Positions 2,223-36,177 of a stretch of 36,177 bases of DNA are shown here, one piece after another. This DNA comes from Symploca sp. SIO1C2 (GTDB taxonomy: Bacteria; Cyanobacteriota; Cyanobacteriia; Cyanobacteriales; Coleofasciculaceae). The stretch's first letter is position 1; every line of letters begins with the position of its first letter. The stretch is from assembly GCA_010672925.1 (NCBI GenBank), contig JAAHFP010000057.1, forward strand, positions 1 through 36,177, given 5' to 3'. Below the pieces are notes generated by a model. That model made no database searches, had not been told where the DNA came from, and saw only the letters and a list, made by a program, of their open reading frames with translations. The translations under genes were made by a program, and so were the position numbers.

Positions 2223-2224
2223 GG

Positions 2225-3386: not shown

Positions 3387-3427
3387 GACACATATCCTGA
3401 GTATTAGTCTCAAACTATCATTTCATT

Positions 3428-3504: not shown

Positions 3505-3505
3505 A

Positions 3506-5353: not shown

Positions 5354-5396
5354 GAGTCTATGGGACGGTTTCTTTATATTTTAGTTGACTGAATTG

Positions 5397-8985: not shown

Positions 8986-9345
8986 TTACCTCAGATGCGG
9001 ATGCTGCCGACTATGACTCCCATCAACTTCTCCCAAAAACGCCCTGCGCCATTGAGCAACCTCAAGCTCGGCAATTTCAGACCTTAAAGATTTAAGCCGC
9101 TCCCCACTCTCTAATCCACTCCAGGGACTTTCAATCAGCTGGTCAATAAACTCTAATAGCGAAGCCTGTCCTTCTGAGGTCAGAATTTCTATTAATCCAG
9201 CAAAAAAGGTAAAATTGTCACCTTGCCAGTCGATTTTCGATGCTAGCTGCTCAAACCCCACAAACATTAGAAGTGCCTTGCGTTGCCTAACTTCTTGAGT
9301 ATTTGGTAACTTTGACAATAATTTCAATAACTGAGGTTTGAGCAT
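8986..9345 (-). pseudogene. Truncated N-terminal copy of the EAD-STAND gene
   Basis: 119 residues, nearly identical to residues 1-116 of the STAND protein at 12214-14562 (same MLKPQLLKLLSKLPNTQEV start and ...GSHSRQHP), then HLR and a stop. It keeps only the effector-associated domain. On the downstream side, 8959-8996 is identical to 12089-12126, the 3' end and flank of the secreted-protein gene. A deletion of about 2.1 kb therefore joined that flank to the EAD segment. The product could still be a free adaptor domain that competes for EAD contacts, but decay is the simpler reading. Confidence 0.75.
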
Positions 9346-14562: not shown

Positions 14563-14605
14563 GATTTAAGACTTTATTCTTAATACCATCAGTACTTTGT
14601 TTGGT

Positions 14606-15655: not shown

Positions 15656-15764
15656 TTTTTGTTGTCGCTGCTATCAAGATTTTGCAGGAAATTGAAACAA
15701 GCTTGTTGAGGAAGAATTAGTTCCTCACAATTCTTAACAGTCTCAGTGTTAAGAGATGAAGTTC

Positions 15765-17585
15765 TTACCGAATCAACGGATAAACATCCTCTCTGATTAG
15801 GTCTGTAGAAGTTTTTCCCTCAGCCTTGTGACACCGGTTATGATACTGGTTGTCTATGCCATGCTTGATGTTGTGGTCACTAACCAGCAGTGGATGACTC
15901 TCAATAAAGTCCTTAACAGCCTGATTATTAACACCAGCTAAGTCCCGAACTGCTCGAATATTGATTGACCACTTGCGATCGCGATTACTCTCAGAAGGGA
16001 ACTGGTCATTCCAAGCCATAATAGCCTCAATAGCTCGTCTCACCCGTTCGGAGGTCGCTCCTGTTCCCTTGACTGGTGCTTTGTACTCACCCTCACCAAA
16101 CAGTTCAGCCTTACTCACACAAGCCCAGTCCCGTGATGGTTGCTTGGGGGTCAGCTTCCTTTCAGGTTTTGGTTGTTGTACTTCGGGTATGGTGGATGTT
16201 TCGGTGGTTTGCGGATTTTGGAGCAGTTTCAATAACTGATTGAATTTCTCTTCAGTTTGCTGTTGGTAAGCTTCAAACTTTTGCTCTAATTGGCTGAGAG
16301 AGGGATTATCCATTGATTCTGTCTCCTGTTCCTTTTGTTCAGTGGGTTGTGATTGGATTGTTAAAGCAATACGGGCTAGCTCGAACACCTTATGCATTGT
16401 TTCGGCTTGGTTTGGCATTCCCCACAGCTCCTCCCATTCATCTAGCTGCTTTCTATCTTCAGGTAGTAAGCGTGTGCGGGATAGCTGGTTTGATGGTACA
16501 GTTGTTTTTTGGGGTTGAAAGAAAGGAACCTCACCCTTGATGTGGTAACTCATATATCCCAGCGTGGTGACTAAGTGCTGTAATTCACGGTCAATTTTCT
16601 TCAGACGCTTTTGGTCATCAGGATCAACATCAATAAAGTGACCTGCTAACTTAGAAGCAAACAGCATTTGACGCGCTGGTGACCCAGAACAATCCCTCTT
16701 GGTAGCGATCGCTAAATAGGCTGACTTAAGAGCTGTATTGTTGATATCAGCTTCCTCATCCTCCAGACGGTCTTCAACTTCATTACGTGGTGGTAAAATC
16801 TCTTCAAATTCCGCCTTGACCACACGATTGAGCCGTTTGTTTGAAAGCTTATCTATAATGCGATTCTGCTTGGGAATATCCCCAGACGCTTCTTTTCTAG
16901 CTGTCTTGAGTATGGTTTTCAGGTCTGGATTAGCTCTAAATTTTTTGAATGCTTTCAAAAATTCATCAACCGGTACAAGCAAAGAGATGGGGAAAACTGG
17001 CTCCTCACCTCGCTTTTTTCCCTGACCCTCGAATTGAACCTGATATTCTTCACCCTCAACAGGAGTGAACTTAGCACGCGCAACAATTTCATGAGGTCGT
17101 CTGCCAGATACAGCTATTAAACCAGCACCAATCTCCCAAGGGTTAGGACTTTGTAGGAGCTTATAGCCAGTCTCAATCTGATGTGTAGGGTCTACTTCGA
17201 TATTCTGCTGTAATCTTTTGTAGACGCGATTAGAAGCATTACGCTCATCCCATTCAAGCGCATTCAAACCACAGTAACGAAAAAAGTAGTGTTTAAGTAC
17301 TTTGGAGCCATCCCGTTTCGTCTCTTGGTAAGCGTTTTCACCATCAACCAAAGTAATTTGACGGATTAATTTGTAGTACCCAGCCTGACTCATCTTAGTT
17401 CCGACGGATTTAGCGCTGTAGCGACCTCTGAGATATTCGTTCTCAGCGCTGGCAATAGAAGCGATATCCTCCTCTCCCATCAAACCATCCAAAGCGTTAT
17501 AGATACCTAATGCCCTAGTTTCTAGGTCACTCAAGCAGCTAACTGACTCGTAAATTAAGAGTGCTTGTTCAAGTGTCTTAGTCAT
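15765..17585 (-). CDS. Telomere resolvase (protelomerase)-like protein, R copy
   Basis: 606 residues, a close paralogue of the protein at 3506-5353. The core motifs are kept: SGRRPHEIVARAKF, GQGKKRGE, LAGHFIDVDP, and GYMSYHI in place of GYMGYHI. The main change is a shorter linker: TSTIPEVQQPKPER here, versus a Thr/Glu/Val-rich stretch in L. Both appear intact, so both may be active. The start codon again abuts an ACCGGT site. Homology between the blocks ends at the stop codon. The gene lies next to the defence island on one side and diverges from a recombinase on the other. Confidence 0.75.
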   Translation of the reverse strand: MTKTLEQALLIYESVSCLSDLETRALGIYNALDGLMGEEDIASIASAENEYLRGRYSAKSVGTKMSQAGYYKLIRQITLVDGENAYQETKRDGSKVLKHYFFRYCGLNALEWDERNASNRVYKRLQQNIEVDPTHQIETGYKLLQSPNPWEIGAGLIAVSGRRPHEIVARAKFTPVEGEEYQVQFEGQGKKRGEEPVFPISLLVPVDEFLKAFKKFRANPDLKTILKTARKEASGDIPKQNRIIDKLSNKRLNRVVKAEFEEILPPRNEVEDRLEDEEADINNTALKSAYLAIATKRDCSGSPARQMLFASKLAGHFIDVDPDDQKRLKKIDRELQHLVTTLGYMSYHIKGEVPFFQPQKTTVPSNQLSRTRLLPEDRKQLDEWEELWGMPNQAETMHKVFELARIALTIQSQPTEQKEQETESMDNPSLSQLEQKFEAYQQQTEEKFNQLLKLLQNPQTTETSTIPEVQQPKPERKLTPKQPSRDWACVSKAELFGEGEYKAPVKGTGATSERVRRAIEAIMAWNDQFPSESNRDRKWSINIRAVRDLAGVNNQAVKDFIESHPLLVSDHNIKHGIDNQYHNRCHKAEGKTSTDLIREDVYPLIR

Positions 17586-17586
17586 T

Positions 17587-17663
17587 ACCGGTTATCAATT
17601 TATCTTACCGGTTACAATATAACGTTACCGGTAATGTCATGTCAAGTATTTTATATAACCGGT
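17587..17663. promoter_or_regulatory. Four ACCGGT operators in the divergent region (R)
   Basis: ACCGGT starts at 17587, 17607, 17627 and 17658, with spacings of 20, 20 and 31. This is the mirror image of the L region, with all four sites and their spacing kept while nearby bases have changed. Conservation of spacing supports a working binding array. Confidence 0.7.
17616..17645 (-). promoter_or_regulatory. Predicted sigma-70-type promoter of protelomerase R
   Basis: On the minus strand, TTGACA (17645-17640) and TATATT (17621-17616) are 18 bp apart, identical in layout to the L copy. An ACCGGT site (17627-17632) sits in the spacer. Confidence 0.6.
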
Positions 17664-17704
17664 AATGAAATGATAGTTTGAGACTAATACTCAGGATATG
17701 TGTC

Positions 17705-18370
17705 ATGAAGATAGACCGCCACGGGAAGGCTAAAATTTTGTCTCAACAAGAGATTCAGCTACTCTTCAGTGAGGGGTTTCAAACTAGTCGCGATCGCGCT
17801 TTGTTCGGCATCTGTTTATTCTGTGCCTGTCGAGTGAGAGAAGCTTGTACTCTACGAACTGGGGATGTCTATGATAACTCTGGTATGGTCTTACCCAAAC
17901 TGATAATTCGCAAAGGTAACACCAAAGGAAAGTTAGCAACTCGCACTATCCCCATCATCTCTGATTTGAGAACACTATTAACCACCTACTACCCAAACGC
18001 AGGGACTGTTTATCTCTTCCCTGGTCGTTTTGGTGAATATCTCCAGCCTGACTCAGCAGACAAAATCTTGAGAAAAGCTTGTAAACGGGTGGGGTTAATC
18101 GGTGTGAGTAGCCACAGTTTCCGCAGGACAGCACTAACCCAGATGAGTGACAATGGGACACCACTGAGGGTAATCCAAGAGGTGTCGGGTCACCGAAACC
18201 TGCAACAACTCCAAGCCTACATTGAGGTTAGAGATGAGCAAGTCTTAGGAGCAGTCACAGGACTAAGCCTACTTTCCCCAGTCGAAAATGAGTCCGGAAA
18301 AACCCTATTTTCCGGACTCAACACCCATCTCACCCACAATGACCATACCCAGACTACTCAGAAGCCATAG
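17705..18370 (+). CDS. Small tyrosine recombinase (catalytic domain only, R copy)
   Basis: 221 residues from the ATG at 17705 (AGGA about 8 bases upstream). It is a close copy of the gene at 2721-3386 with the same catalytic set: R in CRVREA, HSFRRTAL, SGHRNLQQ and the tyrosine in LQAYIEV. It lacks an arm or core-binding domain. It diverges from protelomerase R. Its end overlaps the convergent GIY-YIG gene by 17 bases. A HIP1 octamer (17790-17797) in this copy is absent from the L copy. Confidence 0.8.
   Translation: MKIDRHGKAKILSQQEIQLLFSEGFQTSRDRALFGICLFCACRVREACTLRTGDVYDNSGMVLPKLIIRKGNTKGKLATRTIPIISDLRTLLTTYYPNAGTVYLFPGRFGEYLQPDSADKILRKACKRVGLIGVSSHSFRRTALTQMSDNGTPLRVIQEVSGHRNLQQLQAYIEVRDEQVLGAVTGLSLLSPVENESGKTLFSGLNTHLTHNDHTQTTQKP
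18290..18319. terminator. 12-bp stem hairpin, R copy
   Basis: The stem GAGTCCGGAAAA/TTTTCCGGACTC is identical to that at 2772-2801, but the loop is ACCCTA instead of TGGCTG. The stem is unchanged although the loop has changed in a coding region, which suggests selection on the RNA or DNA structure. Confidence 0.6.
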
Positions 18371-18857
18371 CCATTAATGATTCTTGTGGTGGCGAAGGAG
18401 TACTGTTGTTGGGTGTGATTTTTGGCAAGCATCCAGAAAGCACCACAATGAGCCATAAAGCCCCGATACTTGCCATTGCTAAAGCAATTCGATTCTTAGT
18501 CCATCTCATACCCTTCCTCAAGCTCAAATTAGGCAAGCTTGGCCAAGTGAAAACGACCGTATCTTGATACTCTATTCTGACTTTCTTGAGAGTCCTTTTA
18601 TCGAAAGAAAACCACTCATTGTGGACTCTGTAGCTAGCAAACTTCTCATGGAGATAACCTTCATCAGCTGTGACATCATCAGTCTCAAACCAATCAATCA
18701 GCTCTAAAGGGAATGGTGACTGAGAACTGTTTAATTCAGCAAACCTGGCTTCTACTGAGCGCGTTGTTAGCCCTATCTTGTATCTATCAGTTCCTACGGC
18801 GCGGATGAGATAGATGTAACCTGGTTTGTTTCTGTAGGCGCTGTCATCAAATACCAT
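18354..18857 (-). CDS. GIY-YIG nuclease-domain protein with C-terminal membrane segment (R copy)
   Basis: 167 residues. The N-terminal GIY-YIG (T5orf172-type) motifs match the L copy (GYIYLI, YKIG, RSVEARFAEL, YLHEKF, NEWFSF). The middle linker differs (TWPSLPNLSLRKGMRWTK), and the membrane helix ALAMASIGALWLIVVLSG is kept. The gene starts 2 bases after the ATPase stop. It is the last gene of the minus-strand operon that begins at 23546. Confidence 0.75.
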   Translation of the reverse strand: MVFDDSAYRNKPGYIYLIRAVGTDRYKIGLTTRSVEARFAELNSSQSPFPLELIDWFETDDVTADEGYLHEKFASYRVHNEWFSFDKRTLKKVRIEYQDTVVFTWPSLPNLSLRKGMRWTKNRIALAMASIGALWLIVVLSGCLPKITPNNSTPSPPQESLMAMASE

Positions 18858-18859
18858 CC

Positions 18860-21001
18860 CTACACCTCCACAGCTAACTCATCTTTACGCAATTTTCTCT
18901 TGCATCCTGGACAATAGTAGCGTCCATCTTTCCTCTGTCTTAATTCCACATCAGGGTGATTTTTACAGATAGTTTTGGCTGTGTGACGGCTAGGGACGCT
19001 ACCCCCTACATGGGGAATTACGGACGGGGGGTCAGATTTCGCCGCCATCTCTTGCTGTGTAATGATTTCACCCTTAGCGCTTTTTGGCTCTTGCCCAAGC
19101 TGTAACACTCCGTAAGGCTCAAGTTTGGCGTTTTTTTGTCCCTCTACAAACTCTTGGCTACTAACAGAAACTGAGAAACTTTTTCCTATTAGAGGTGAAT
19201 CGCTACCAATTTCAATTGAGTCGGCAACAGGTAACTCATACCATTGTGGGTTCTTACCAGGAATTACACATAACCCAAAGTAGTGCTTTTTGTTATCATC
19301 AAGCCACTCGTTCTTACCTTCATACACTGAAGATATCTCATTGTATTGCTTGAGCAAGATATCCCTCTTTAACTCAAGCGATGGATTGTTTTTGATGGCA
19401 TCTAGAGCACTTCCACCTTGGTAGAAGGCTATCATTTGAGCCATGTCTGACCACTGAAAACCAGCACGACTCACCTTGGGATTTTGACCAATCAAGATTA
19501 ACTTCATTCCCAGGTGACGAATTCTAGAAATTAGGTTGAGAAACTGTCCTTTATCTTCCTTCTCTAACTGGGTGTCAATCTCATCTAGGATGTCTAAAGT
19601 AACTGGGGAATGAACCTTAGTAACTTCCCTATCTTTCATTTGAGCAGTAATCATTGAAAGAGCTTGCTTTAGTTCTCTACCTGACTTACTAACCTTGGGG
19701 ATACCCCAGTGGTCTTGGTCACTGCCATGCTGTGGGTCATGAAGCCTGATATACCAAGAAAGAGTAGTGACTATCCTTGATAGGAGGTATCGAGCGCAAA
19801 CACCCTTACCATCCCCAGTGGCTCCCATGATTCTGACAGTTCCCTTTCGGGACATCTCACGGATTACTTGGGTAGCTAACTTGTCTAGTGGGGTGAGCAA
19901 GCGCTTAAGTTCATCTTGCTTAATAGCCGGTTCACGACGGAAGCTGAGAACCAATAAATCAGCTATCTCAAGTTTGCGGACGCTTACGATTTTGTGGATA
20001 CCTAGGCTTCTAGCAATGTCCTCTGAATACCTCTGTAAATCCCTCTTTAGGGCTTCTACTGGTGTTGATTGGCTGTAACCATATCCCACATCTACAGACC
20101 CGTCTGAGCGCTTCTGGTAGCCTTTTATTGACAAGGGGACTTGCAAGTTATCCCAAGTCCAGCGGCCAATGTCGTTGGCTATTTTCCCCTCAATGGCATA
20201 GCCAAATTGACCATACTCAGGCTCGGTTAGGTCACCAGCTAATTGTTGCTGGAGCCTTGCTACCTTCTCATTTAAAGTTTCAATCTGGGTGAGCAAAAGA
20301 CCGCGCTCAATTTCCCAAGCTCCTTGAGCCTCCCCAATCCGCTTGTTGAATTCACCCGTGAGTCCCATTATGTAAGCTTTTCTGTCTTGATGCCTATACG
20401 CTACCTCACCAGCCCAAGCCTTGTACTTCTCACTTATTGACATTGCCTCAGCATAGATGACTTCACCTTCCTCTAAGAGTGCTCTGTATTTACTTTTGAG
20501 CGCTTCTCTATCCTGAGTGATATATTCCTGAACCTTCTGCTGTACCTCGCTTTCAAGCTCATTGGAGTAAGATTCCTCATACTCAATAACCTGTTCTGAG
20601 AGCTTGGCTTGCTGTGAAGAAGATACTGCTAATTGTGCTTGAGTAAATTGAAGTGATTCTTTCAGATTACAGTTCTCTGTTTTCAAACTCGACAGTAAAT
20701 TTTCCACTCTCGATAATTCAGTTTTCAATTTAGCTAAGCACTTAGAAAGTTTGCTGTTATCTGTTTGAACGTTCTGTAATTTCTTCAGTTCCGAGTTGGC
20801 CAAACCTAGTTTATTGTCTAGTTGTTTGACTTTCTGATTAGCTTTTCGGTGAATGAATTCGCTCGATATTACTGTTACAGGTATCGCTCCCAGACTACTC
20901 AAAGCTACCAGTTTGATAGTAGGCTTGAGCAGTCCTGTTGTCAGTGCTAAAACCGTTAAGCTGAATCCAGTTAATCCACCAATGATTATCTGCTTTCTCA
21001 T
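18860..21001 (-). CDS. Membrane-anchored coiled-coil P-loop ATPase, HerA/FtsK-like (R copy)
   Basis: 713 residues, the same length and layout as the L copy: two N-terminal hydrophobic segments, long coiled coil, ATPase, C-terminal CxxC zinc-ribbon-like tail. The coiled coil between about 55 and 100 has diverged most. Walker A reads GATGDGKG: residue 400 is glycine (GGT at 19804-19802) instead of serine as in L. That residue normally binds the Mg ion, so ATP turnover may be weakened, although the lysine and the Walker B LDILDEID remain. The start is 3 bases after the coiled-coil gene's stop. Confidence 0.75.
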   Translation of the reverse strand: MRKQIIIGGLTGFSLTVLALTTGLLKPTIKLVALSSLGAIPVTVISSEFIHRKANQKVKQLDNKLGLANSELKKLQNVQTDNSKLSKCLAKLKTELSRVENLLSSLKTENCNLKESLQFTQAQLAVSSSQQAKLSEQVIEYEESYSNELESEVQQKVQEYITQDREALKSKYRALLEEGEVIYAEAMSISEKYKAWAGEVAYRHQDRKAYIMGLTGEFNKRIGEAQGAWEIERGLLLTQIETLNEKVARLQQQLAGDLTEPEYGQFGYAIEGKIANDIGRWTWDNLQVPLSIKGYQKRSDGSVDVGYGYSQSTPVEALKRDLQRYSEDIARSLGIHKIVSVRKLEIADLLVLSFRREPAIKQDELKRLLTPLDKLATQVIREMSRKGTVRIMGATGDGKGVCARYLLSRIVTTLSWYIRLHDPQHGSDQDHWGIPKVSKSGRELKQALSMITAQMKDREVTKVHSPVTLDILDEIDTQLEKEDKGQFLNLISRIRHLGMKLILIGQNPKVSRAGFQWSDMAQMIAFYQGGSALDAIKNNPSLELKRDILLKQYNEISSVYEGKNEWLDDNKKHYFGLCVIPGKNPQWYELPVADSIEIGSDSPLIGKSFSVSVSSQEFVEGQKNAKLEPYGVLQLGQEPKSAKGEIITQQEMAAKSDPPSVIPHVGGSVPSRHTAKTICKNHPDVELRQRKDGRYYCPGCKRKLRKDELAVEV

Positions 21002-21004
21002 TGC

Positions 21005-21670
21005 TTATACTTGGGGTGTTAGTAGTAGTTTAAATTCGGCTAATTTGGTCTGCTTCTCTTGAGTTTGCAGTTGCGCTAACTCAGCACCTGCTTTAGCTTG
21101 AGCGAGTTTTTCCGACAGTTCTTTTTCTGTTTGATCTGCGATTGATTGGGCTGTACTTGTGCGTAATTTAGCAGTTCCCAGTTCAATATTTTTCTGTTGG
21201 TTATTTTGCAGTTGAATTTGATAGTCTGTTAAGTCAGATTTAACTTTCTCGTATGCAGTAGCAGCTTGAACTCCAGCACCGAAAGTTTTAGCTTTCTTAC
21301 CCTCAACTAGAAGCCTTTCACGGGTTAAATCAAATGCTTTCCCTGTTAGTTGTACAGCGCGTGTTGCACCCTCGTATATTCTGCTAGCTTTGATAAACTC
21401 ACCAAGAGATACTTGTGGTAAACTATCAGGCGGGTTTAGCGGGTCTTTAACGCGATAATCAGCAGGCTGGAACTCTGGTAATTCATCCTGCACACTTTCC
21501 ACACCGAGGGGATTCAACCCACTCATCTCACTGTATTGAGCAGCGTCTTTGACTTGTTTGACAGTATTCTGGACTGCTTTTACTGTAGAAGCTGCTTTTG
21601 AAACAGTTTTCTTAGCGAGAGTCTTTCCTCTACGCTGTGAAGCATTCTTACTTAGGCTTGGTCTTGGCAT
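21005..21670 (-). CDS. Basic/coiled-coil hypothetical protein
   Basis: 221 residues. The N-terminus is very basic (MPRPSLSKNASQRRGKTLAKK), a possible nucleic-acid contact. A Pro-rich middle (ESVQDELPEFQPADYRV...NPPDSLPQV) leads to a long helical coiled coil (about 95-215) rich in Ala, Gln, Lys and Glu. No enzymatic motif is visible. The gene overlaps the upstream 61-residue gene by 19 bases and is followed 3 bases later by the coiled-coil ATPase, so it may form a structural partner of that motor. The end of a second copy is at 1-77. Confidence 0.65.
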   Translation of the reverse strand: MPRPSLSKNASQRRGKTLAKKTVSKAASTVKAVQNTVKQVKDAAQYSEMSGLNPLGVESVQDELPEFQPADYRVKDPLNPPDSLPQVSLGEFIKASRIYEGATRAVQLTGKAFDLTRERLLVEGKKAKTFGAGVQAATAYEKVKSDLTDYQIQLQNNQQKNIELGTAKLRTSTAQSIADQTEKELSEKLAQAKAGAELAQLQTQEKQTKLAEFKLLLTPQV

Positions 21671-25023: not shown

Positions 25024-25227
25024 ATGAAAACAATTAAGAATTCAGCACAAAATACTGACAATCGCAAGCTATTTCAGCCAAAGTCAAAACCCCAAATAAG
25101 CAGCGTGCCAGGTGTTGGAGCGAAGGAAAAGTACCGATATCGAGTCGTTTTGGCGGGGAGGATTTTGGGCGCTTGCCTAACTCTGGAGCAAGCCTTAGCG
25201 ATCACGGGACTCGGAGGTGTGCTGTGA
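25024..25227 (+). CDS. Small basic protein coupled to the replication gene
   Basis: 67 residues, basic at the N-terminus (MKTIKNSAQNTDNRKLFQPKSKP). It continues SSVPGVGAKEKYRYRVVLAGRILGACLTLEQALAITGLGGVL, which resembles short plasmid orphans before rep genes. The stop TGA (25225-25227) overlaps the GTG start of the replication gene (GTGA), so its translation probably sets Rep synthesis. Confidence 0.6.
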   Translation: MKTIKNSAQNTDNRKLFQPKSKPQISSVPGVGAKEKYRYRVVLAGRILGACLTLEQALAITGLGGVL

Positions 25228-28200
25228 GCAAATTCATCCCCTCCAAGAAATCCAACCCCTGCGAAATATGCGGCGATACTTCGGGAAAATGCCGTACACA
25301 CCGGGATGGAGAAATCTTGCTGTGTATGAGCTTCAGTGGCTCTAAGTTCGGAGAGATTCAAAACGGCTACAAGTGTATTAAGGAGGATAAAGGTAAGGGC
25401 TGGTCAACCTGGAAAATTGATAATACCCAAGAGTGGACAGAGCAACAACAGAGGGAGTGGAGGCAGCGCCTTGAAGCTAGGAGAAGGCAGCAAGCATCAG
25501 TTGATGAGCAAAAGGCGCTAGCTACTCTATCACAGCAGCAGCGGCATGAGCAGTATTCAAGATTGCTAGCTGAACTGACTCTCCACCCAGAGGATAGGGC
25601 TGATTTAGTTCGTAGGGGCTTTACAGATGAGCAAATTAAGCTCTCTGGGTTCAAATCGGTTGAAAACTGGCAGTTGCTCAAAGGAAAGTACAGCCATCTA
25701 CTACCTGGCATGGGAATAGGCGGCAAGCGCTTGCTAACAGGGAGAGGGTATCTTTGCCCCATCCGTAATGCCCAAGGGCTAATAGTGGCTTGTCAGGTTC
25801 GGCTCAGGGAAGTTAGGAGCGGGGAAGGTCGCTATCGCTGGCTTAGCAGTGTCACTAAGAAAAACCCAGGCGGTCAGTCTCCTCATATTTACCACAAAGG
25901 ATTTGACCCTGAACTGCCTTTGGCTATCCACAAGCCAGTAGGTGAGCCCTTGGGTGTTGCTGTAGTCGAGGGTACAGGAGCTAAACCCTTCCTGGCTAGC
26001 CAGCGGTTAGGTAAGCTTGTCATTGGTGCTGCTGGTGGTCAGTGGGCTAGTAGCCAGAAGCAACTCAAGCAGACGGTAGAGAAGTACTCTCCAGGTGAGC
26101 CAATAACCTTATACCCTGATGCAGGGAGTACATCCAATAAGACTGTTATTGCCCAATACTTTAGGGTCGCCTCTGTGTTAAAAGAGTGGGGCTACTCCAT
26201 TCAATTTGCTTGGTGGGGACAGTCCACCAAAAATGATCCAGATATTGATGAGCTCCCTCCTGAGCGCTATAGCCAAATTGAATATCTCTCTATTGAGCAG
26301 TTCAAACAGCTGGCTACTGAACATGGTGGTTACTCAGAAAGGGAGGATCAGGCGCAGAAATACCTCAAGCCAATCGAGGAACTGCCTACGGTAAGCTTAA
26401 TGGCATCCCGTACAACAATGCAGGAGTTGAGGCGAGTTTTTAGCGCTCTCAATTCCGAGACGGGGAAGGAATGGCTCCAGCTACGGAAATTCACTCCTGA
26501 CCACACAATTAATTCACAGTACTTTGATTGGGAGCCTCCAAAATCTGGAGAAGGATTAGCGGTAAAATCTGGACTGGGAACTGGGAAAAGTTGGTGGGCT
26601 AACCAGAAATACCTAGCCAATCCATCAGATGGAGCTGCTATAGGAGGCTACAGAAATGTACTACTGGAGCAATTCTGTTCTAATGGACACAAGCTCAATG
26701 GAGAGCATTGGAATCAAATCCAAGGCGATTTAAAGGCCAACGGTGAACTGATACTTCTGGCTGACCCTCACTCAAGAATTGCTGGAGCAGTGGACTCCTG
26801 GGGGTACTTCTCCCCCCATCATTTTGAGGACAAGAAAATCATTTTTGATGAGGTTGAGAGCGTTGCTCGTCACCTTCATCACTCCAATACTGCTGTCAGT
26901 CTCTACAGGGAAACTATTAAGCAGCGGGTAGTTGATGCATTACAGAATGGGGATTCATTCTTTCTATCAGATGCAAACTTAACTGACTTCACTATTGAAT
27001 ATTTTGAGAAACTAAGCGGACGGAAAATTACCAAGGTGGAAAATACCTACATTGGTAACCGAGGTAAGATTTATCTATACGATGGCTCAAGTCGCCACCG
27101 TCAAGCTTCCCCCGAAGATGTAGACACTGGATTAGCTTCTCTTGTAGGCGAGTCGATTGAGTTTGATGCCAAACCCGATGACTACTCTCTTCTCCATAAA
27201 ACAATGATGGAGCTACCGCCTGACATTCCCATTATCATCAGTTCTGATTCTCAAGCCAAATGCGAGGCATGGGATTTGACGCTATCAGAGAAAGGGAGGA
27301 AGGTTTTTAGACTAGATAGTACAACTTCAAATACTGAAGAGGGCAAGGAATTCTTACGCGACCCCAAGGCTTTTATCCTCAAGTATGGCATCAATACAGT
27401 GATACTTTCTCCTAGCGCTGAATCTGGAGTCAGCATTGATATGAGAAAAGCTTCTTCAATTATCGATAGCATAGAATCCACAATGCCGAGTTTTTTCAAG
27501 TACGAATTCGCTTTTTTCTTTGGTGTGGCGGCAACGGATACTCAGGTTCAATTTTTAGGGCGTAATCGTGACCCTCAAACAATCAGGTTTGTTTACTGTC
27601 AAAATCATTCCAGCTTGCACACAAAAATAGGTTTTCAAAATCTAACATCGGGTCAACTGCAACAAGCCTTCAAAGAATACACCTTGGATTGTGCTAAGGT
27701 TTCTCTTTCCGGTCTTAGTGAAGTTGAGAGAAAGAACAAACTGCTTGATTTGGCAATTGAATTAGTTGAAAAATCAATAGACCCACATTATGAGTATGAA
27801 TGCCGGGTTATCGCCAAGGAGAATTTTGAGCGAAAGCACCCCAGACTTTGCCTTGAGTATGCCCTACGGGATAGCGGCTGGGATGTCACTGTTGTCAGGG
27901 GACGGGAGGATGATATCTCTGATTTAAGAGAGCAGCAGGAGTTAGTTCAATTCGCCGAGGCGCAAGCCACTCACAAAGTAGAAACAATCAACTCTAGTGA
28001 AGCTGATAAATTAGCCCGTAAACTCAACAAAACCCCTGACGAACGGCGCTCTGTTGTGAAGTCTCGGTTACTCTCAAGGCTCCCAGGTTTTGAGAATAAA
28101 TCGATCCTTGAGGAAAGGAAGTTAGCACCCTCATCAGTGGTTGAGACTGCCGAAAAACACAAAATTCTTCAAATTGATGGGGTTAAAGCCAATGAAGTTG

Positions 28201-29336
28201 GTTTTACTGAAAAGCTCAAGGAAGTACAGAAATTAGCAGTACAAGAGCAGGCAAATTCTGAGTCAAGCACCCCGCAGTCAACCACGGACAATAATACAGA
28301 AGATTTACGGTGTACTAACAACCTCAAAAACGAGGGGGTGACACATTCCGAAACTCAGGCTGCGCAAGGACTTGACCCCGTGACACAACCTGCCGATAAT
28401 TCTAAGAAAACCAGTGCTGTTGTGTCACACCCAGTCAAGGTGGTTTTTGAGAAGCCAGCCTTTGACCCTGAGTTTATCCACACCGTAAGAAATAAAGACC
28501 GAAATCTTATCTCAAGGATTGAGGAACAGTTCTTATTGCTCACCCCTGTTGCGGCTAAGCTTCTACAGCAACAGCGCTGGTATAAGAAACTAAGCATCTT
28601 TACCGACCCGGATGAGCCCGACTGTAAAAAGAAAATCCACCTAGCCACCTATCGGAGTAAATGGCTTCAAGTCCACACCCTGCTTTCTATGGGTATTGGG
28701 TGGTTCCTCAACCCAGAGAATAGCTGGCATAACAAATCCCCAGAGGTGCTGGAATTCTGGGAAAAAGGCAAAGACCTCAAACGTCAACGGAATATCGGTG
28801 TATCTGCTCAGGATACCTCGCCTTGCCAGTATCTGGGTAAAGTTCTCAAAAAGTTTGAGCTCAAGACAAAGTGTAAGCGAAAGAGAATTGAGGGCGAGGT
28901 AGTGCGATTATACTGCATAGATAAACTTCAGCCATTACATCAAGCCATTCTTGAGTCTGTGGCAGAGCGGATAAATTCCCAGATTTCTGAGTTCGTTTTT
29001 GATTGGAAAAAAGTGGCTTCTAATCAGGGTGTGTCACAACCCGTAACTCAGGCTATGCCCTCTCTTGAGTCTGTGACACAACGAGCCGATAATTTCTTAA
29101 AAACCAGTGGTGTTGTGTCACACCAGACTGGGGGGACTGGCTTGCCTGATGATGAAAGGCAATGTACTTTCCAAACCGAAGAAATTTCCCAAGCTGAGTT
29201 TGAACAGCTGAGGCGGATCTCAAAGGAGAGCTCAGAAAAAGGTCACATTTTTAGGTCTATGTTGATGGGGGTCAAGAAAATTACCCGTTTGTTGTACGAG
29301 CAAGTGATGACAGAGTTTGCTTTTGCTTCCTTCTAA
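25224..29336 (+). CDS. CyRepA1-type plasmid replication protein (primase/helicase-like)
   Basis: 1370 residues from the GTG at 25224. That start is preferred because GGAGG lies before it and it overlaps the leader stop. Order: N-terminal zinc cluster (C13, C16, C23, C34 in CEICGDTSGKC...LLC); a Toprim/DUF3854-like part (VAVVEGTGAKPFLAS near 245-260, LYPDAG); a helicase with GLGTGKS (450-456), DEVES (from 542) and QFLGRNRDP (arginines about 780-782); then a long variable C-terminal half. The DEVE-type helicase recalls origin-binding proteins. The layout fits the CyRepA1 family of cyanobacterial plasmids. It should start replication at a plasmid origin, possibly inside its own gene, where paired GTGACACAAC repeats are found. 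Confidence 0.85.
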   Translation: MSKFIPSKKSNPCEICGDTSGKCRTHRDGEILLCMSFSGSKFGEIQNGYKCIKEDKGKGWSTWKIDNTQEWTEQQQREWRQRLEARRRQQASVDEQKALATLSQQQRHEQYSRLLAELTLHPEDRADLVRRGFTDEQIKLSGFKSVENWQLLKGKYSHLLPGMGIGGKRLLTGRGYLCPIRNAQGLIVACQVRLREVRSGEGRYRWLSSVTKKNPGGQSPHIYHKGFDPELPLAIHKPVGEPLGVAVVEGTGAKPFLASQRLGKLVIGAAGGQWASSQKQLKQTVEKYSPGEPITLYPDAGSTSNKTVIAQYFRVASVLKEWGYSIQFAWWGQSTKNDPDIDELPPERYSQIEYLSIEQFKQLATEHGGYSEREDQAQKYLKPIEELPTVSLMASRTTMQELRRVFSALNSETGKEWLQLRKFTPDHTINSQYFDWEPPKSGEGLAVKSGLGTGKSWWANQKYLANPSDGAAIGGYRNVLLEQFCSNGHKLNGEHWNQIQGDLKANGELILLADPHSRIAGAVDSWGYFSPHHFEDKKIIFDEVESVARHLHHSNTAVSLYRETIKQRVVDALQNGDSFFLSDANLTDFTIEYFEKLSGRKITKVENTYIGNRGKIYLYDGSSRHRQASPEDVDTGLASLVGESIEFDAKPDDYSLLHKTMMELPPDIPIIISSDSQAKCEAWDLTLSEKGRKVFRLDSTTSNTEEGKEFLRDPKAFILKYGINTVILSPSAESGVSIDMRKASSIIDSIESTMPSFFKYEFAFFFGVAATDTQVQFLGRNRDPQTIRFVYCQNHSSLHTKIGFQNLTSGQLQQAFKEYTLDCAKVSLSGLSEVERKNKLLDLAIELVEKSIDPHYEYECRVIAKENFERKHPRLCLEYALRDSGWDVTVVRGREDDISDLREQQELVQFAEAQATHKVETINSSEADKLARKLNKTPDERRSVVKSRLLSRLPGFENKSILEERKLAPSSVVETAEKHKILQIDGVKANEVGFTEKLKEVQKLAVQEQANSESSTPQSTTDNNTEDLRCTNNLKNEGVTHSETQAAQGLDPVTQPADNSKKTSAVVSHPVKVVFEKPAFDPEFIHTVRNKDRNLISRIEEQFLLLTPVAAKLLQQQRWYKKLSIFTDPDEPDCKKKIHLATYRSKWLQVHTLLSMGIGWFLNPENSWHNKSPEVLEFWEKGKDLKRQRNIGVSAQDTSPCQYLGKVLKKFELKTKCKRKRIEGEVVRLYCIDKLQPLHQAILESVAERINSQISEFVFDWKKVASNQGVSQPVTQAMPSLESVTQRADNFLKTSGVVSHQTGGTGLPDDERQCTFQTEEISQAEFEQLRRISKESSEKGHIFRSMLMGVKKITRLLYEQVMTEFAFASF
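28338..29123. repeat. Paired GTGACACAAC inverted repeats inside the rep gene
   Basis: GTGACACAAC (28380-28389) is inverted as GTTGTGTCAC (28419-28428). The same pair recurs at 29073-29082 and 29112-29121. Both have exactly 29 bp between arms and similar inner sequence (GCCGATAATT...AAAACCAGTG). Single copies lie near 28338 and 29031. They are in frame, encoding PVTQPADN...TSAVVSH and SVTQRADN...TSGVVSH. They are candidate iterons or an origin within rep. Confidence 0.6.
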
Positions 29337-29636
29337 TTGCTACCATTTCTGATTTTTAGCCTGGAGCTGAAAGTGGGTTCCCATAGCTTGCAGCTGTGAG
29401 ATCCAATCTCAAAAGAATTAATCGCACCGGGAGATTGGCAACTAGTCTCTACAGCTGCAATGAGACAGCACCGAGACAGTGGACTGTGTTATTTATATAA
29501 CCCCTGAAAGTGAAGTATGATGGGAGCTGTAGTCAATTATGCTTGGCGAGTATTATGAAACTGTTATCAGCTTTTTCTCAAAGTTTCATAGAAAACTGAT
29601 AACCCTCTTGTCCCATCCTGTCGCGTGGTGTCTCGT
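29337..29636. other. Intergenic region with hairpin
   Basis: No gene. GTTATCAG (29563-29570) and CTGATAAC (29596-29603) form a hairpin extended by CTTTTT/GAAAA-rich pairing, 34 bases before the next start. CAGCTG-containing repeats occur near 29390 and 29450. No clear promoter. Confidence 0.4.
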
Positions 29637-30206
29637 ATGTCTCTGAGTGAAAAACAGCTAATCGTCATCGAGAAACTGGTAATGGGTTGTAACCATCAGG
29701 AAGCGGCTGATGCTGCTGGTGTGGCACGTTCTACTGTCTATCGGTGGTTGAACTCGGAGGAATTCAAGAGGGGCTTGGACTCAGCAAGAGAATCAATCAA
29801 AGAGGGTCATGAGCAGGTCATGGACTCCTACAAGAGAGCTCTATTAGAGGCTGTAAAGTACTCCCCTGATTGTATGAGCATCCTTTTGGAGATAGCCCAG
29901 AGTCCCGATACCCGTACAGCCGACAGACTCAAAGCAGTTGAGATGCTTTTACAGCAACCTCCCAAGCTAATGGGGTTGCTGACTACTGAAGCTGTTTTCC
30001 CAGAGGAGAGATTAGCCCAGGAGCAGGAAGAAAGATTAAAGAAGCAGCAGTTAGAAGCTATGCTTGAGGCATCCCCAGATTGGCGAAAAACCGATGACGG
30101 GTACTGGACGGATGATTCCTTGAGCGTTTTAGGCCAGTTGCATACTTATAACGTTGAGAAGGCGTATGAGAAGCTGACGAATCCTACAACTTTCTTTGAG
30201 CTTTAG
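29637..30206 (+). CDS. HTH protein resembling terminase small subunit
   Basis: 189 residues from the ATG at 29637; GTG codons at 29625 and 29628 are alternatives and no start has a clear ribosome site. The N-terminal HTH is LSEKQLIVIEKLVMGCNHQEAADAAGVARSTVYRWLNSEEFKRG, followed by a helical region with DRLKAVEMLLQQPPKL. It is a paralogue of 7023-7484. It lies upstream of another HTH gene and the terminase large subunit, so a small-terminase role (binding the packaging site) is reasonable. The extended C-terminal tail (...YWTDDSLSVLGQLHTYNVEKAYEKL) is not in the paralogue. Confidence 0.6.
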   Translation: MSLSEKQLIVIEKLVMGCNHQEAADAAGVARSTVYRWLNSEEFKRGLDSARESIKEGHEQVMDSYKRALLEAVKYSPDCMSILLEIAQSPDTRTADRLKAVEMLLQQPPKLMGLLTTEAVFPEERLAQEQEERLKKQQLEAMLEASPDWRKTDDGYWTDDSLSVLGQLHTYNVEKAYEKLTNPTTFFEL

Positions 30207-30906: not shown

Positions 30907-32502
30907 ATGCTGAGGTTATACGGGAGTGATTTAACTCCAAAAACATCTCGTCTAGTCAAAAAGAACACTCTGGCACTGTCAAATAATGCCAAGAATTTCT
31001 CTGAGTATTCCAGCAAACCTGTTGAGTTTGCTCACTGTGTTTTGGGTATCCCCTATCTCACACCAGACACGATTTCTATTCTAGAAAGTGTTCGTGACAA
31101 CAAGGTAACTAATGTACAAGCGTCACACGGTGTAGGTAAATCTTTTATCTCAGGTGCAGTGCTGACAATATGGTGGGTGTTTGCAGTAAAGGGACTGTGT
31201 ATCACCACTGCTCCTACAGAACGTCAGGTAAAACAAATCTTGTGGAGTGAAGCCAGGAAAAGCTTTCGACGAAATAAGCACAAATTAGGTGGCAGAGCTG
31301 GGGAACTGTTTATCAATCTCAACGAGGATGCTAGAGCATTTGGCTTCACCTCCAGAAGCACTGACTCTAATGGTTTTCAGGGCATACATGGGGACAAGCT
31401 ACTGCTGATCGTTGATGAGGCAAGCGGTATTTCTCCACAGGTTGATGAGGGAGCAGATTCGTGTTTGGTAGGCTCAAATAATCGAATGCTGAGGATTGGT
31501 AACCCATTAGCTGACGGGACACCTTTTGCCGCTGCCTGTAAGCGCTCTCATATACAAATACCCGCCTGGACTCATCCTAATGTAGCGTGGGCATACCAGA
31601 AAGAATCAGATGGTATCCACAGAATTAAGCCAGAACTCAGAGAGCATCTGTTTGATGAGAATGGTAAGGTATTGGATCGTCAAAGTTGGGGTAAGCCAGC
31701 ACGGGATACCATGCTCCAATACTTGGAAGAGATGTCCGCCATTGAGATTAATGGTGCTATTTCAGTAGAGTGGATTGAGAATGCCAGGATTAAGTATGGG
31801 GAAGGGTCAGCTTTCTGGGAGTCACGGGTAGAGGCGCGGTTCCCGTTAGATTCCGGTAAATCCATCATCCCCCGCCGCTATTTCCTCATGGGAAGGGTGA
31901 AATTTGACCAACTCACACCCCTCGAATGGAGAGAGAAGCTGAAACGTTACAGACCTCGCTATGGCTTGGATGTGGGTGATGGTGGTGATGAGAGTGCAAT
32001 TTCTAGGTGGCAAGGGTCTGTACTTTGGTTCGTGCGTTCGCAACCAACATTAGGAGATGAACTCGATACAGGGAGAGCGGCTGGTATGGTGTTAGCCGAT
32101 ATGAAGCGCTGGGGTAATGGTGCTGTTGGGGTTGATAATGTTGGGGTTGGTGCTGGCTCACTCGACATTATCAAGCGCTCTAATATTTTAGCCAGAGGTA
32201 TCCGCTGGGGGGTATCAGCTAAAGATAAAGAACGTTTTGCCAACCTTAAGGCTGAGCAGTTCTGGGAGGTGCGGGAGGCTTTAGAAAAAAGAGAGCTGGC
32301 TATTGCACCCCTTGGGGATTATGAGGAAGAGCTTATGGAGGATTGGGCTAACACTTTCTATGAAGAAACAGCCAGGGGTCAGATACGAATAGAGAACAAA
32401 ACCAAGACTAAGCAGCGATTAGGCAGAAGCCCCAATTGTGGGGATGCTGCTATCTACGGTTATCATGCTTCCCCACCTATCAGTCCGCTATTTTTTACGT
32501 AA
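30907..32502 (+). CDS. Phage terminase large subunit
   Basis: 531 residues. The ATPase half shows Walker A SHGVGKS (73-79), CITTAPTERQVKQILW, and Walker B LLIVDEASG (D170-E171), with a GNPLADGTPF coupling segment. The nuclease half has GLDVGDGGDESAI (D355 region), VGVDNVGVGAGSLDII and a late CGDAAIYGY aspartate, matching the RNase H-like terminase nuclease. The protein is of normal length and looks intact. It would cut and pump DNA into a prohead, but no portal, capsid or tail gene is in the window. Confidence 0.85.
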   Translation: MLRLYGSDLTPKTSRLVKKNTLALSNNAKNFSEYSSKPVEFAHCVLGIPYLTPDTISILESVRDNKVTNVQASHGVGKSFISGAVLTIWWVFAVKGLCITTAPTERQVKQILWSEARKSFRRNKHKLGGRAGELFINLNEDARAFGFTSRSTDSNGFQGIHGDKLLLIVDEASGISPQVDEGADSCLVGSNNRMLRIGNPLADGTPFAAACKRSHIQIPAWTHPNVAWAYQKESDGIHRIKPELREHLFDENGKVLDRQSWGKPARDTMLQYLEEMSAIEINGAISVEWIENARIKYGEGSAFWESRVEARFPLDSGKSIIPRRYFLMGRVKFDQLTPLEWREKLKRYRPRYGLDVGDGGDESAISRWQGSVLWFVRSQPTLGDELDTGRAAGMVLADMKRWGNGAVGVDNVGVGAGSLDIIKRSNILARGIRWGVSAKDKERFANLKAEQFWEVREALEKRELAIAPLGDYEEELMEDWANTFYEETARGQIRIENKTKTKQRLGRSPNCGDAAIYGYHASPPISPLFFT

Positions 32503-33381: not shown

Positions 33382-33585
33382 CTTTCCCGTGGCGGTCTAT
33401 TTTCATGGCACATATCCTGAAAGAAAAAACTTCCATGCTTCAGTGAGTAAGGCTGAACTGTTTGGTGAGGGTGAGTACAAGACTCCAGTCAAGGGGACTG
33501 GTGCTACATCCGAAAGGGTGAGACGAGCCAGGGTAAGACTTCTACAGACCTCATCAGGGAGGATGTCTATCCGTTGATTAAGTAG
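33382..33585 (+). pseudogene. Remnant of a third recombinase/protelomerase module
   Basis: 33382-33420 copies the start of the recombinase (minus sense), matching 3363-3400 with a few changes. It is joined directly to a protelomerase C-terminal piece: SVSKAELFGEGEYKTPVKGTGATSERVRRA from 33442, then a deletion, then a frame reading KTSTDLIREDVYPLIK-like sequence ending at TAG 33583-33585. Promoter, catalytic core and most of the C-domain are gone. The orientation towards the right telomere equals that of protelomerase L towards the fossil telomere. Confidence 0.75.
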
Positions 33586-33622: not shown

Positions 33623-34183
33623 CTACTTATTCGACAGTCCCTCATCTTGTTTAGTCCGCTGCGGTTTATTCAAAATTAGTTCAGACCAACCTTCAAGACT
33701 GCGGTCATCTTGTAGAGTGATTGGCATAACTAGACATAGTTTATTTTTTAGTTCCTTAAGAGACAAAGGTAAGAGTGACTTGATTAGAGGATTGATAGCA
33801 TCACGACGAGAAGTTAATTTTACTTTTTTCAACTTTTGTTCTGATACAAATTTACGAATATCTTGTATGTCAGGTAAAAAAGTCTTGTCTTTCAATCCGT
33901 CGTAAAATTTTACAAGTAATTCTGATTTTTCTGGTTCTGTTTTTTTTAGTTCAATAAGAGTGTTTCGTAATCCTTTATGAGATTGTTTTACTGGAGAAAT
34001 ACTAGTATCATTTTTCGAGACATTTTCAACTTCTTGATCCTTTTTAGAAAGAATCGAAACTAAATGTTCAATCAAATCTTGAGATGAAAGATAATCAGCA
34101 AGACTTTCTGAAAAATCAGGGTAATATTTCTTGATAAGTTTAGCAAGTTCTATCAGTAGTTCAGAATTTATTTTATCTTCCAC
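33623..34183 (-). CDS. Probable partition partner of ParA (hypothetical)
   Basis: 186 residues, mostly helical and lysine/glutamate-rich (LIELAKLIKKYYPDFSESLADYLSSQDLIEHL...KLKKVKLTSRRDAINPLIKSLLPLS). No ParB/Spo0J or RHH motif is visible. The start overlaps the ParA end by 16 bases, so the two are coupled. By position it is the expected centromere-binding adaptor. The family is not recognised. Confidence 0.55.
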   Translation of the reverse strand: MEDKINSELLIELAKLIKKYYPDFSESLADYLSSQDLIEHLVSILSKKDQEVENVSKNDTSISPVKQSHKGLRNTLIELKKTEPEKSELLVKFYDGLKDKTFLPDIQDIRKFVSEQKLKKVKLTSRRDAINPLIKSLLPLSLKELKNKLCLVMPITLQDDRSLEGWSELILNKPQRTKQDEGLSNK

Positions 34184-35022
34184 AAATTAATCCTCTCAGC
34201 GAACTCATTTGCAAACTCGAAGAATTTAAATTTTTTTTCTGTACGAGCTTTAGATGTTTTGAAAATTGGTTTACCTAGCCGTGCACCTTTTGGAAAAGAG
34301 CGAGAATAGGGAACTTCTGCATTGAATACATACCATCCATTCTTCTGTGCTATCAGTCGTACTGTATCCTTTGAATAAGTTTCTTCTGGTAAATAATCGG
34401 ATGTCATATTGAATACAACTCCTGCCAAAATCAAATTATGTTCCTCGTTTTCATTCTTGAAATCATTCATAGAAGTAACTAGTAGATTGAGTCCAATAGC
34501 AGACAAATATTCAGGTTTTACAGGAACTAGTACATAGTCACTTGCTAGATATGCAGCAGTAGTAAGAACTGATTCTGTAGGAGCACAGTCAATCAGTATC
34601 AAATCATATTCATTTTCTAATTTTGATAGAAATTTAGCTAGTTTTTTTTCCTTCATTGCAGGATTTCTTAGAGAAAACGATAACTCTAGTCTCGATGGAA
34701 TCAAATCAACTTTACACCCATCATTAAAAGTAATAACGTTATAGATTGGAGCGTTGATTTCTTCAATTATATTCTGACCTTTTGGTGACCGTATATTTTG
34801 CTCTAAAATATCCCATGTTGTTGGTTTTTCTTCCTCAAGAATTCTTCGATAATCACTCACACCAATTAAGTATTGACTAGCATTAAATTGTGGATCTAGG
34901 TCAACAACTAATACTTTTTTATCCCAACCAATAATAGCAGCGAAATACCAAGCAAGATTTACAGTGAGAGTTGACTTTCCTACTCCACCCTTCATATTAA
35001 TGATAGAGACTTTTTTAGCCAT
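34168..35022 (-). CDS. parA: ParA-family partition ATPase
   Basis: 284 residues. The deviant Walker A KGGVGKST (11-18) follows SIINM. VLVVDLDPQFNASQ is the A' motif and LILIDCAPTES the Walker B. VPVKPEYLSAIGLN and later GVVFNM complete the usual MinD/ParA pattern. AGGAGG lies before the ATG. It lacks the long N-terminal HTH of P1-type ParA, so another protein would repress the operon. It drives plasmid segregation with its overlapping partner gene. The ACCGGT-rich DNA upstream could serve as the centromere. Confidence 0.85.
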   Translation of the reverse strand: MAKKVSIINMKGGVGKSTLTVNLAWYFAAIIGWDKKVLVVDLDPQFNASQYLIGVSDYRRILEEEKPTTWDILEQNIRSPKGQNIIEEINAPIYNVITFNDGCKVDLIPSRLELSFSLRNPAMKEKKLAKFLSKLENEYDLILIDCAPTESVLTTAAYLASDYVLVPVKPEYLSAIGLNLLVTSMNDFKNENEEHNLILAGVVFNMTSDYLPEETYSKDTVRLIAQKNGWYVFNAEVPYSRSFPKGARLGKPIFKTSKARTEKKFKFFEFANEFAERINLWKIK

Positions 35023-35375: not shown

Positions 35376-36110
35376 ACCGGTTTGATATTTGACCGGTCAC
35401 GTTTAATATAACCGGTTTATTCGGAGTAAATGTTACCGGTTATCTGAATAAAAGCGATTGCTTCCAGCACCGCTCTCTTGCGATTACCTACGGTAGCGCG
35501 ACGCGATTGCTTCCAGCACCGCCATAGGCGATCGCTCTCAAACACCACCAATGTTGTGCTTTGCTGATGGGTTGTCTTGAGGGAGTCAAGTAGAGCGGGT
35601 GGTGACCCGTCTCGTGGGACGCCAAGGAACAGTCGCGATTGTCATGAGAAGCCCTTGCATACCATAACCGGTAATGTTTGTAAGCTAACCGGTTACAATG
35701 TTGACAACCGGTGATACCTGATAAATAACCGGTTATATTCAATCAACTAACCGGTAATAAGGGGGATGGTAGTGATGTTACCGGTTACCATGAGACTCTA
35801 GGCTATTCCTTGAAACCCATGATATGAGGGGCTTTCAGTATCGGACATCAGTGAGCGGTAATGTTAAATTGGAGTCTTCCGTCCAAGCGGTAATGAAATG
35901 TTGATAACCAGTAACAGGTTTACATAACCGGTAATGGATGTCAAGTAAAATCAACATAACCGGTCATTATCTCGGTCTTTGGTGGTTGCTGAAACCCTTA
36001 TATAGCAATGGTTCTGGAACTGGTTATTTGATAGGGTATAATGAAGGGCACGACCGGTAATGTTAAATTGGGCACTCCCATCTCACCGGTAGTCTAATAA
36101 TCTAACCGGT
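35376..36110. repeat. Right subtelomeric ACCGGT array
   Basis: ACCGGT starts at 35376, 35392, 35411, 35435, 35667, 35688, 35707, 35728, 35750, 35780, 35927, 35959, 36053, 36085 and 36105. The group 35667-35750 is spaced 19-22 bp. A roughly 200-bp unit is repeated: GAAACCC...CGGTAATGTTAAATTGG near 35812-35877 and again 35991-36072. GCGATTGCTTCCAGCACCGC occurs twice near 35453-35522. No gene is supported here. Confidence 0.75.
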
Positions 36111-36176
36111 AATGTCTGTTAATTTAAATTAACAGACATTACCGGTTAGATTATTAGACTACCGGTGAGATGGGAG
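36075..36176. other. Telomere palindrome (predicted protelomerase target or hairpin end)
   Basis: Perfect inverted repeat with 51-bp arms, centred on AATTT|AAATT between 36125 and 36126. Only the outermost pair (36074/36177) fails. Each arm carries ACCGGT sites at fixed distances (36085, 36105 and 36141, 36161). Known protelomerase targets are perfect palindromes of roughly 40-60 bp core. The palindrome at the very edge of the sequence fits reading around a hairpin or across a telomere junction. Confidence 0.8.
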
Positions 36177-36177
36177 A

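Follow-up and report, generated by a model that had tools for sequence, protein, structure and literature searches.

The telomere phages N15, PY54 and phiKO2 are linear plasmids with a protelomerase and hairpin ends. Compared with them, the DNA analysed here, a stretch of 36,177 nt referred to as the window, shows no capsid or portal genes among the proteins scanned. The window is one entire contig (C199, 36177 nt) of a cyanobacterial draft genome of 8.67 Mb in 245 contigs. Gagunashvili & Andresson (2018; PMC5987646) deduced closed hairpins for the plasmids pNPM8, pNPM9 and pNPM10 of Nostoc N6, a lichen-dwelling Nostoc, from palindromic reads in one library and from a drop in coverage without spanning pairs in a second, i.e. 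the hairpin state there rests on library behaviour. Like the window, these three plasmids have the terminal core AAATTAACRGAC, inverted terminal repeats and an annotated protelomerase, and the likeness extends to other genes, since pNPM8 has ParA and pNPM9 a disrupted terminase (PMC5987646), while pNPM10 has a GIY-YIG gene beside its protelomerase. They differ from the window in that pNPM9 and pNPM10 carry one annotated protelomerase gene each, whereas the window has two, and in that the Nostoc N6 boxes are of the TAACNNGTTA type, whereas those of the window are ACCGGT. The word protelomerase is absent from the main text of PMC5987646, although public annotation uses it.

Beyond Nostoc N6, the 37,151-bp linear incision element of Anabaena variabilis ATCC 29413 can be likened to the window by its description in PMC4148955, both in size and in its terminase-like and recombinase-like genes, although its authors report no sign of hairpin repeats at its termini. 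The introduction of a 2013 paper on TelA lists cyanobacteria, in a single sentence, with other bacteria whose chromosomes end in hairpins. Linear replicons and hairpin ends in cyanobacteria are already in print, and public annotation says ‘protelomerase family protein’, but as far as open-licence PMC papers show, the evidence for hairpin-ended cyanobacterial linear plasmids rests on one 2018 report. The same open-licence literature yielded no link between the core and the enzyme family, no box arrays, no TCATGA or TTTAAA tips and no replicon with two resolvases. The comparison presented here ties the telomere core to the protelomerase family in 50 named cyanobacterial loci and gives a consensus target.

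The terminal palindrome and its core

The right edge of the window is occupied by a perfect palindrome of 102 nt (36075-36176), whose arms (36075-36125 and 36126-36176) are each 51 nt long, 100% complementary and without a spacer; an earlier note on this DNA had described it in the same terms, and both a repeat search and a direct scan confirmed the description. The centre lies at 36125|36126, where the core reads AATTTAAATT, and the palindrome stops one base short of the window end, leaving 36074 (A) and 36177 (A) unpaired. Arms of at least 51 nt are expected by chance 2.3e-26 times and the longest arm across 50 shuffles was 10, which excludes a chance origin; by direct scan, no second arm of at least 9 was found in the window.

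The conserved core, GTCTGTTAATTTAAATTAACAGAC, occupies 36114-36137 with the tip hexamer TTTAAA at 36123-36128, and is single-copy in its own genome even when up to 3 mismatches are allowed. Its outer half (36126-36137), AAATTAACAGAC, places a terminal core like that of Nostoc N6 at the end in inverted orientation, and the whole core is the double of the sequence found at the ends of pNPM8-10. Among 388 genomes of the order the exact core occurs in 5, at 8 places, all of them 15-53 nt from a contig end (52; 40 and 40; 53 and 53; 15 and 15; 18), and all 5 genomes hold a protelomerase homologue; at E up to 1e-3, such homologues, many of them distant, are present in 63 of the 388. Allowing up to 2 mismatches added one match, in the middle of a contig of genome G217, which is the level of the reversed-pattern control (1 genome matched). 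Two contigs, of 22857 and 21752 nt, have the core at both ends, one protelomerase gene each and perfect inverted terminal repeats of 689 and 1094 nt, respectively, counted from the contig ends. Positions 3-6, 8, 10 and 11, counted from the tip, do not vary among 25 telomere arms taken from 19 contigs or records. The tip itself is TCATGA, the native hexamer of TelA, in the Zarconia and Spirulina relatives, and TTTAAA in the window and with the other proteins whose tips are known. No core was found in IMG/VR.

The palindrome is, with high confidence, the right telomere of a linear plasmid with putative covalently closed hairpin ends, read through the hairpin tip and resolved by a plasmid-encoded protelomerase, which would place the true end of the replicon at 36125|36126. 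The hairpin telomere of a linear cyanobacterial replicon that the earlier note had proposed is thereby supported by the published Nostoc core, by the contig-end position of 8 of 8 core places and by two protelomerase genes in the window. In the proposed mechanism, the DNA would turn round at the tip, and replication, presumably from the CyRepA1 region, would proceed through the hairpin to give an inverted-repeat junction. One or both of the protelomerases encoded in the window would then bind the core and its flanking boxes, make 6-bp-staggered cuts around TTTAAA, at positions predicted by analogy with TelA, and reseal each half as a hairpin. The left contig end is cut inside a repeated gene module and has no palindrome, and the core is seen at one end of the window replicon; because the left end lies within this module, linearity is deduced from one telomere together with the relatives.

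In each of three assemblies the two telomeres show overhangs of the same length beyond the tip (40/40 on two contigs, 53/53 and 15/15), which suggests that arm length is an effect of assembly. Reads would cross the hairpin tip and the assembler would stop at a length of its own, so the 51 nt need not be a biological boundary. In the window the overhang is 52 nt, the last one unpaired, and a parallel to this odd last base is seen in the unrelated assembly of Spirulina sp. SIO3F2, with 48 paired and 1 unpaired nt at the contig edge. The earlier note had taken the unpaired base either for the true stop of the palindrome or for an error; the 51-bp arm and its last base are probably uninformative on where the palindrome stops. 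Assembler word length was considered as the cause of the 52-nt overhang and rejected: an overlap of exactly 127 nt joins contigs C50 and C18 of the window's own genome, and this predicts 63 by a simple de Bruijn argument. Calothrix brevissima NIES-22 plasmid8 (AP018215), with unequal overhangs of 49 and 73, also breaks the equal-overhang rule.

Protelomerase genes of the window and their relatives

The earlier note had named protelomerases as the enzymes that act on such palindromes, but it missed the two protelomerase genes within the window. Protelomerase 1 (615 aa) is encoded at 3506-5353 on the forward strand and protelomerase 2 (606 aa, 87% identical) at 15765-17585 on the reverse strand, convergent with the first. 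Both contain the ResT/TelK catalytic domain PF16684 (E 6.9e-25 and 2e-25; 88.1 and 89.9 bits against a curated cut-off of 27). An AlphaFold2 model of protelomerase 1 (mean pLDDT 76.5, pTM 0.48) was compared with the PDB by Foldseek, and ranks 1-8 were all TelA, TelK or ResT (E 2.3e-8 to 1.1e-3), the top matches being TelA and TelK, followed by ResT, at 14-19% identity; the family profile reaches all three by sequence too. The domain and the predicted fold are thus common to the window enzyme, TelA (Agrobacterium), TelK (phage phiKO2; 2v6e) and ResT (Borrelia; 8vs5). Protelomerase 1 differs from these in its length, in a C-terminal half of its own and in a candidate second Arg that is Lys in both window copies.

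The Arg of GRRPHE, the Lys of GQGKK, His315 and Tyr343 are invariant in the aligned family, and the second Arg of GRRPHE aligns with the residue mutated in 4f41 (TelA R255A). For TelA the listed active-site residues are Arg255, Lys286, Arg366, His394 and Tyr405. At the site where all 26 other aligned relatives carry Arg (LR), the two window copies carry Lys. This position is taken here to be that of TelA Arg366, the assignment of window residues to TelA sites beyond Arg255 being presumptive, by motif rather than by structure. Because Lys replaces Arg at this presumed Arg366, the activity of the window protelomerases cannot be assumed, and it may differ if the two sites do correspond. The differences between the two genes are mostly silent (dN 0.069, dS 0.72, dN/dS 0.096), which indicates that both have been under selection. 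A FastTree phylogeny built from 28 proteins places the window pair first with Zarconia navalis and next with Spirulina (supports 0.985 and 0.998). Against PHROG, protelomerase 1 matches two families of unknown function (phrog_5272, E 2.7e-18; phrog_26709, E 6e-15); tblastn found no protelomerase relatives in 50,697 phage records, and a pattern-seeded scan of IMG/VR confirmed 0 of 25 stretches.

Scanning GTDB genomes with the family profile gave the 50 named loci, all with cyanobacterial titles. The sequence reaches a contig end downstream of the protelomerase in 39 of them, of which 11 are palindromic just past the tip and 3 end inside a half-telomere; the remaining 25 downstream ends have no telomere, as is possible in draft contigs. 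No palindrome was found at the upstream contig ends of the 16 loci that reach one. In the 11 palindromic loci, 0.36-6.8 kb separate the matched part of the gene from the tip further downstream. These counts are not independent of those from the 388 genomes and the plasmid records, with which the loci overlap: L095 is G362 C76, L108 is G383 C169, L111 is G196 C58, L113 is G201 C53 and L110 is AP018215.

A protelomerase homologue is carried by 14 plasmid records, and 6 of the 9 examined (eight whole, one partial) are labelled circular. The inverted repeats meet exactly at the record junction in three of these six (AP018305, AP018302 and pNPM9); in the two Fischerella NIES-4106 records (AP018305 and AP018302) the junction is an ACCGGT palindrome that lacks the core. 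In AP018215 a core lies close to each end, 49 and 73 nt inside, and none was found in Calothrix PCC 7716 p8 or Nostoc UHCC 0926 pn6 (AP025026 and NZ_CP117767) despite the homologue in each. Nostoc C052 pC052_H (L010, NZ_CP040280.1) is a largely mirrored record, with a 12.4-kb region self-inverted at 99.9%, and its mirror axis carries the same core, as read-through of a closed hairpin would give. Such ends are thus easily hidden: in drafts they look like short palindromes at the edge of a contig, and in some finished genomes like ‘circular’ records. The two Fischerella records, pNPM9 and pC052_H (L009, L013, L015 and L010) look mis-assembled or mislabelled. Cores also lie inside the long Nostoc records C052 pC052_G (L161, 16025) and C057 p057_I (L160, 16026), with inverted flanks of varying identity, and these are either unpolished read-through or true junctions.

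Replicon genes and competing explanations

The right half of the window encodes a CyRepA1-family plasmid replication protein of 1387 aa (25173-29336, forward strand; NF042913, E 2.6e-77, 261 bits against a cut-off of 200), a terminase-small-subunit-like HTH protein (29625-30206, forward; phrog_2538, E 5.8e-12), a terminase-large-subunit-like protein (30907-32502, forward; phrog_2, E 5.2e-23, with phage terminases also matched by tblastn) and a ParA partition ATPase that adjoins the right subtelomere (34168-35022, reverse; PF13614, E 1.1e-36; phrog_164). CyRepA1, ParA, the terminase subunits and an integrase make the replicon a plasmid with phage-derived parts. Between the internal island described below and protelomerase 2 lies a cargo region (12214-15655) encoding an NB-ARC/TPR protein that also has an EAD8 domain, together with an EAD8-trypsin protein; the two resemble a STAND-type defence pair. 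Two direct repeats were also observed, one of 300 nt at 98% (8996-9295 and 14213-14512) and one of 99 nt at 77% (28333-28431 and 29026-29124), both copies of the latter within the CyRepA1 gene.

Three other explanations of the palindrome were weighed against a resolved hairpin telomere. A chimeric fold-back formed at the contig end during assembly or library preparation, with no biological palindrome behind it, is exceedingly improbable. Fold-back artefacts do exist, the Nostoc C052 records having mirrored arms of 89-91% identity that resemble unpolished read-through, and visible arm length varies by assembly; yet independent assemblies share the core at their contig ends, several of them with a box equally far from the tip, and none of 13 readable left contig ends of the same genome folds back (20 were fetched, of which 7 read N). 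The conserved core brings this explanation close to refutation. Very improbable, too, is the reading that a circular plasmid has captured a replication junction or inverted dimer and that there is no closed hairpin end. A replicated telomere junction is the normal intermediate and has the same sequence, an inverted dimer left unresolved would produce an identical contig end, and six related plasmid records are labelled circular. Against this, the meeting of inverted repeats at the junction in three of those six, and the cores inside both ends of AP018215, form the pattern seen when a linear contig is closed by default, and the Nostoc N6 paper lists pNPM9 as linear and reports a coverage drop near the ends and no mate pairs across the palindrome (PMC5987646). 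That the replicon is an N15-like prophage of a telomere phage, with the palindrome as the prophage telomere, is unlikely but deserves more weight. Genes like the large and small terminase subunits and an integrase are present on the contig, the two PHROG families of unknown function match protelomerase 1 with E below 1e-14, and pNPM9 has a terminase too, disrupted by an insertion sequence (PMC5987646). However, none of the 20 window proteins compared with PHROGs matched a capsid or portal family, and the sole tail-type match is weak (phrog_1668, E 0.0011) and belongs to an HTH protein that better matches terminase small subunits. The phage records and IMG/VR, with neither a confirmed relative of the enzyme nor, in IMG/VR, the core, also speak against a phage. 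Because the contig is incomplete on the left, virion structural genes could lie outside it.

Boxes, duplicated module and internal island

ACCGGT occurs 47 times in the window against 6.1 expected, and 43 of the 47 copies fall in four places, namely the right subtelomere with the palindrome, both protelomerase promoters and an island at 7691-8515, often with a spacing of 19-22 bp. The subtelomeric array (35376-36110) comprises 15 boxes, the first centred 18 bp and the second 38 bp from the tip, and a box 18 bp from the tip recurs in L107, L110, L111 and L132. Four boxes, 31, 20 and 20 bp apart (3428-3504), lie in the promoter region common to protelomerase 1 and a divergent integrase gene, and four more, 20, 20 and 31 bp apart (17587-17663), lie ahead of protelomerase 2 and its own divergent integrase gene.

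The equivalent box in relatives is palindromic, of the TAACNNGTTA type, 10 bp long and often repeated at about 20 bp. In 42 of 48 loci at least two such boxes stand within the approximately 550 nt that precede the gene, compared with 3.4% of random windows from the same loci, although the motif was defined after looking at the same sequences; two loci that start inside the gene were omitted, and the misses are L090, L099, L118, L130, L132 and L133. Over the same 48 loci, upstream density is 5.05 boxes per kb vs 0.52, and 51 of 91 neighbouring gaps measure 19-22 bp, while six other palindromic motifs reach 0-0.49 per kb upstream (43 loci). Subtelomeres are similarly equipped, with 5-9 boxes in 600 nt in 10 of 11, none in Spirulina and 10.6 per kb overall. 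When the pattern is relaxed, CG forms the central pair in 6/6 promoter boxes, 7/8 island boxes and 8/9 subtelomere boxes of the window, compared with 0/7 elsewhere in it; in relatives it is CG in 0/118 promoter boxes and 1/55 subtelomere boxes (42 loci, 11 subtelomeres). Zarconia has an AC/GT form in 2 of 3 promoter boxes and in its subtelomere.

The presence of the window's CG variant in both locations suggests that one protein binds telomere and promoters, and a concerted change of the boxes at both sites is what one such protein would produce. Of the predicted binders the protelomerase would be the simplest candidate, in which case it would bind its own promoter, and the divergent integrase is another. 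A telomere with box arrays may therefore couple end recognition to gene regulation. A wider reading, doubtful at present, is that the resolvase is both a telomere binder and its own regulator via the TAACNNGTTA-type box, and that the window replicon arose when two such plasmids fused. If it is true, box specificity switches in step at both sites (CG in the window, AC/GT in Zarconia), telomeric box copies could titrate resolvase synthesis, and a core-less telomere fusion left the two convergent resolvase genes with a dead internal telomere between them.

The protelomerases belong to a 5.3-kb module that is present in two inverted copies (1-5355 vs 15763-21081), with 84.6% identity and open frames in both, and that encodes a 713-aa protein, a GIY-YIG nuclease, an integrase and the protelomerase. 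The 713-aa protein (81-2222, forward strand), which has a weak, sub-threshold AAA-type match, is 85% identical to its second copy (18860-21001, reverse). The T5orf172/MUG113 (GIY-YIG-type) nuclease (2225-2737, forward) shares 77% protein identity with the second copy (18354-18857, reverse); in annotated Nostoc plasmids, too, a GIY-YIG gene adjoins the protelomerase. The tyrosine integrase (PF00589; 2721-3413, reverse) is divergent from protelomerase 1, and its second copy (17678-18370, forward; 93% protein identity) is divergent from protelomerase 2. The island at 7691-8515, with 18 ACCGGT boxes and no core, resembles a telomere and lies between the two convergent modules, and 7963-8165 within it is an inverted copy, on the reverse strand, of the right subtelomere at 35924-36127 (76.7% over a 206-column alignment, E 5.7e-36).

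As a tentative addition to the best explanation, it is possible that two related linear plasmids fused head to head at their protelomerase-side telomeres, leaving the island as a dead, core-less junction. The palindromic end is downstream of the protelomerase in 11 of 11 such loci, where 39 loci reach a contig end downstream and 16 upstream, and both window protelomerases point at the island. In addition, the right half of the island is the inverted copy of the right subtelomere, with 0/300 box-preserving shuffles scoring as high, and the 10-mer GGGTTTCAGC flanks the island centre as an inverted pair (7891 and 8092), occurring elsewhere in the window only at 35988. The arms appear to be of different lineages, 1-867 being 94.5% identical to contig C66 (651 nt compared), 90.5% to C18 and 85.2% to the right arm, although gene conversion could mimic this closeness to C66 and C18. 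The left half of the island fits the fusion less well. It matches the mirrored subtelomere weakly, with 20/300, 54 and 49/500 and 88/2000 shuffles scoring as high, and against the mirrored right half 391/2000 shuffles do so, whereas its reverse complement fits the subtelomere better (0/500, twice), a match read as being to an inboard unit; the island may simply be an inverted subtelomeric array. A simple dimer that later diverged is disfavoured, because C66 and C18 resemble the left arm more closely than the right arm does, and an unpolished fold-back of the kind seen in Nostoc C052 was rejected as the source of the inverted arms, since the reading frames are open in both copies and most differences between them are silent. 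The head-to-head telomere fusion, if confirmed, would show one fate of linear replicons when resolution fails.

Several smaller observations concern the same elements. The GGGTTTCAGC element lies approximately 130-145 bp from the tip in three lineages (L126 at 15152, L135 at 9990 and the window at 35988), running the opposite way in the window, and a further copy in L104 (12934) is away from a known tip. Fragments of the protelomerase module, of 37, 92 and 50-55 nt and 87-95% identical, lie at 33384-33584, after the GNAT gene, and are remnants of a third module copy. Two sibling contigs encode shorter resolvases, C50 (L067, 2219-3262) one of 347 aa (PF16684, E 1e-36) and C54 (L068, 1226-2461) one of 411 aa (PF16684, E 6e-26). 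C50 is joined to C18 by the 127-nt overlap, and the C54 resolvase adjoins the same GIY-YIG and integrase genes as are found in the module of the window. Related plasmids of the same cell may have exchanged their resolvase, as if the slot had been swapped.
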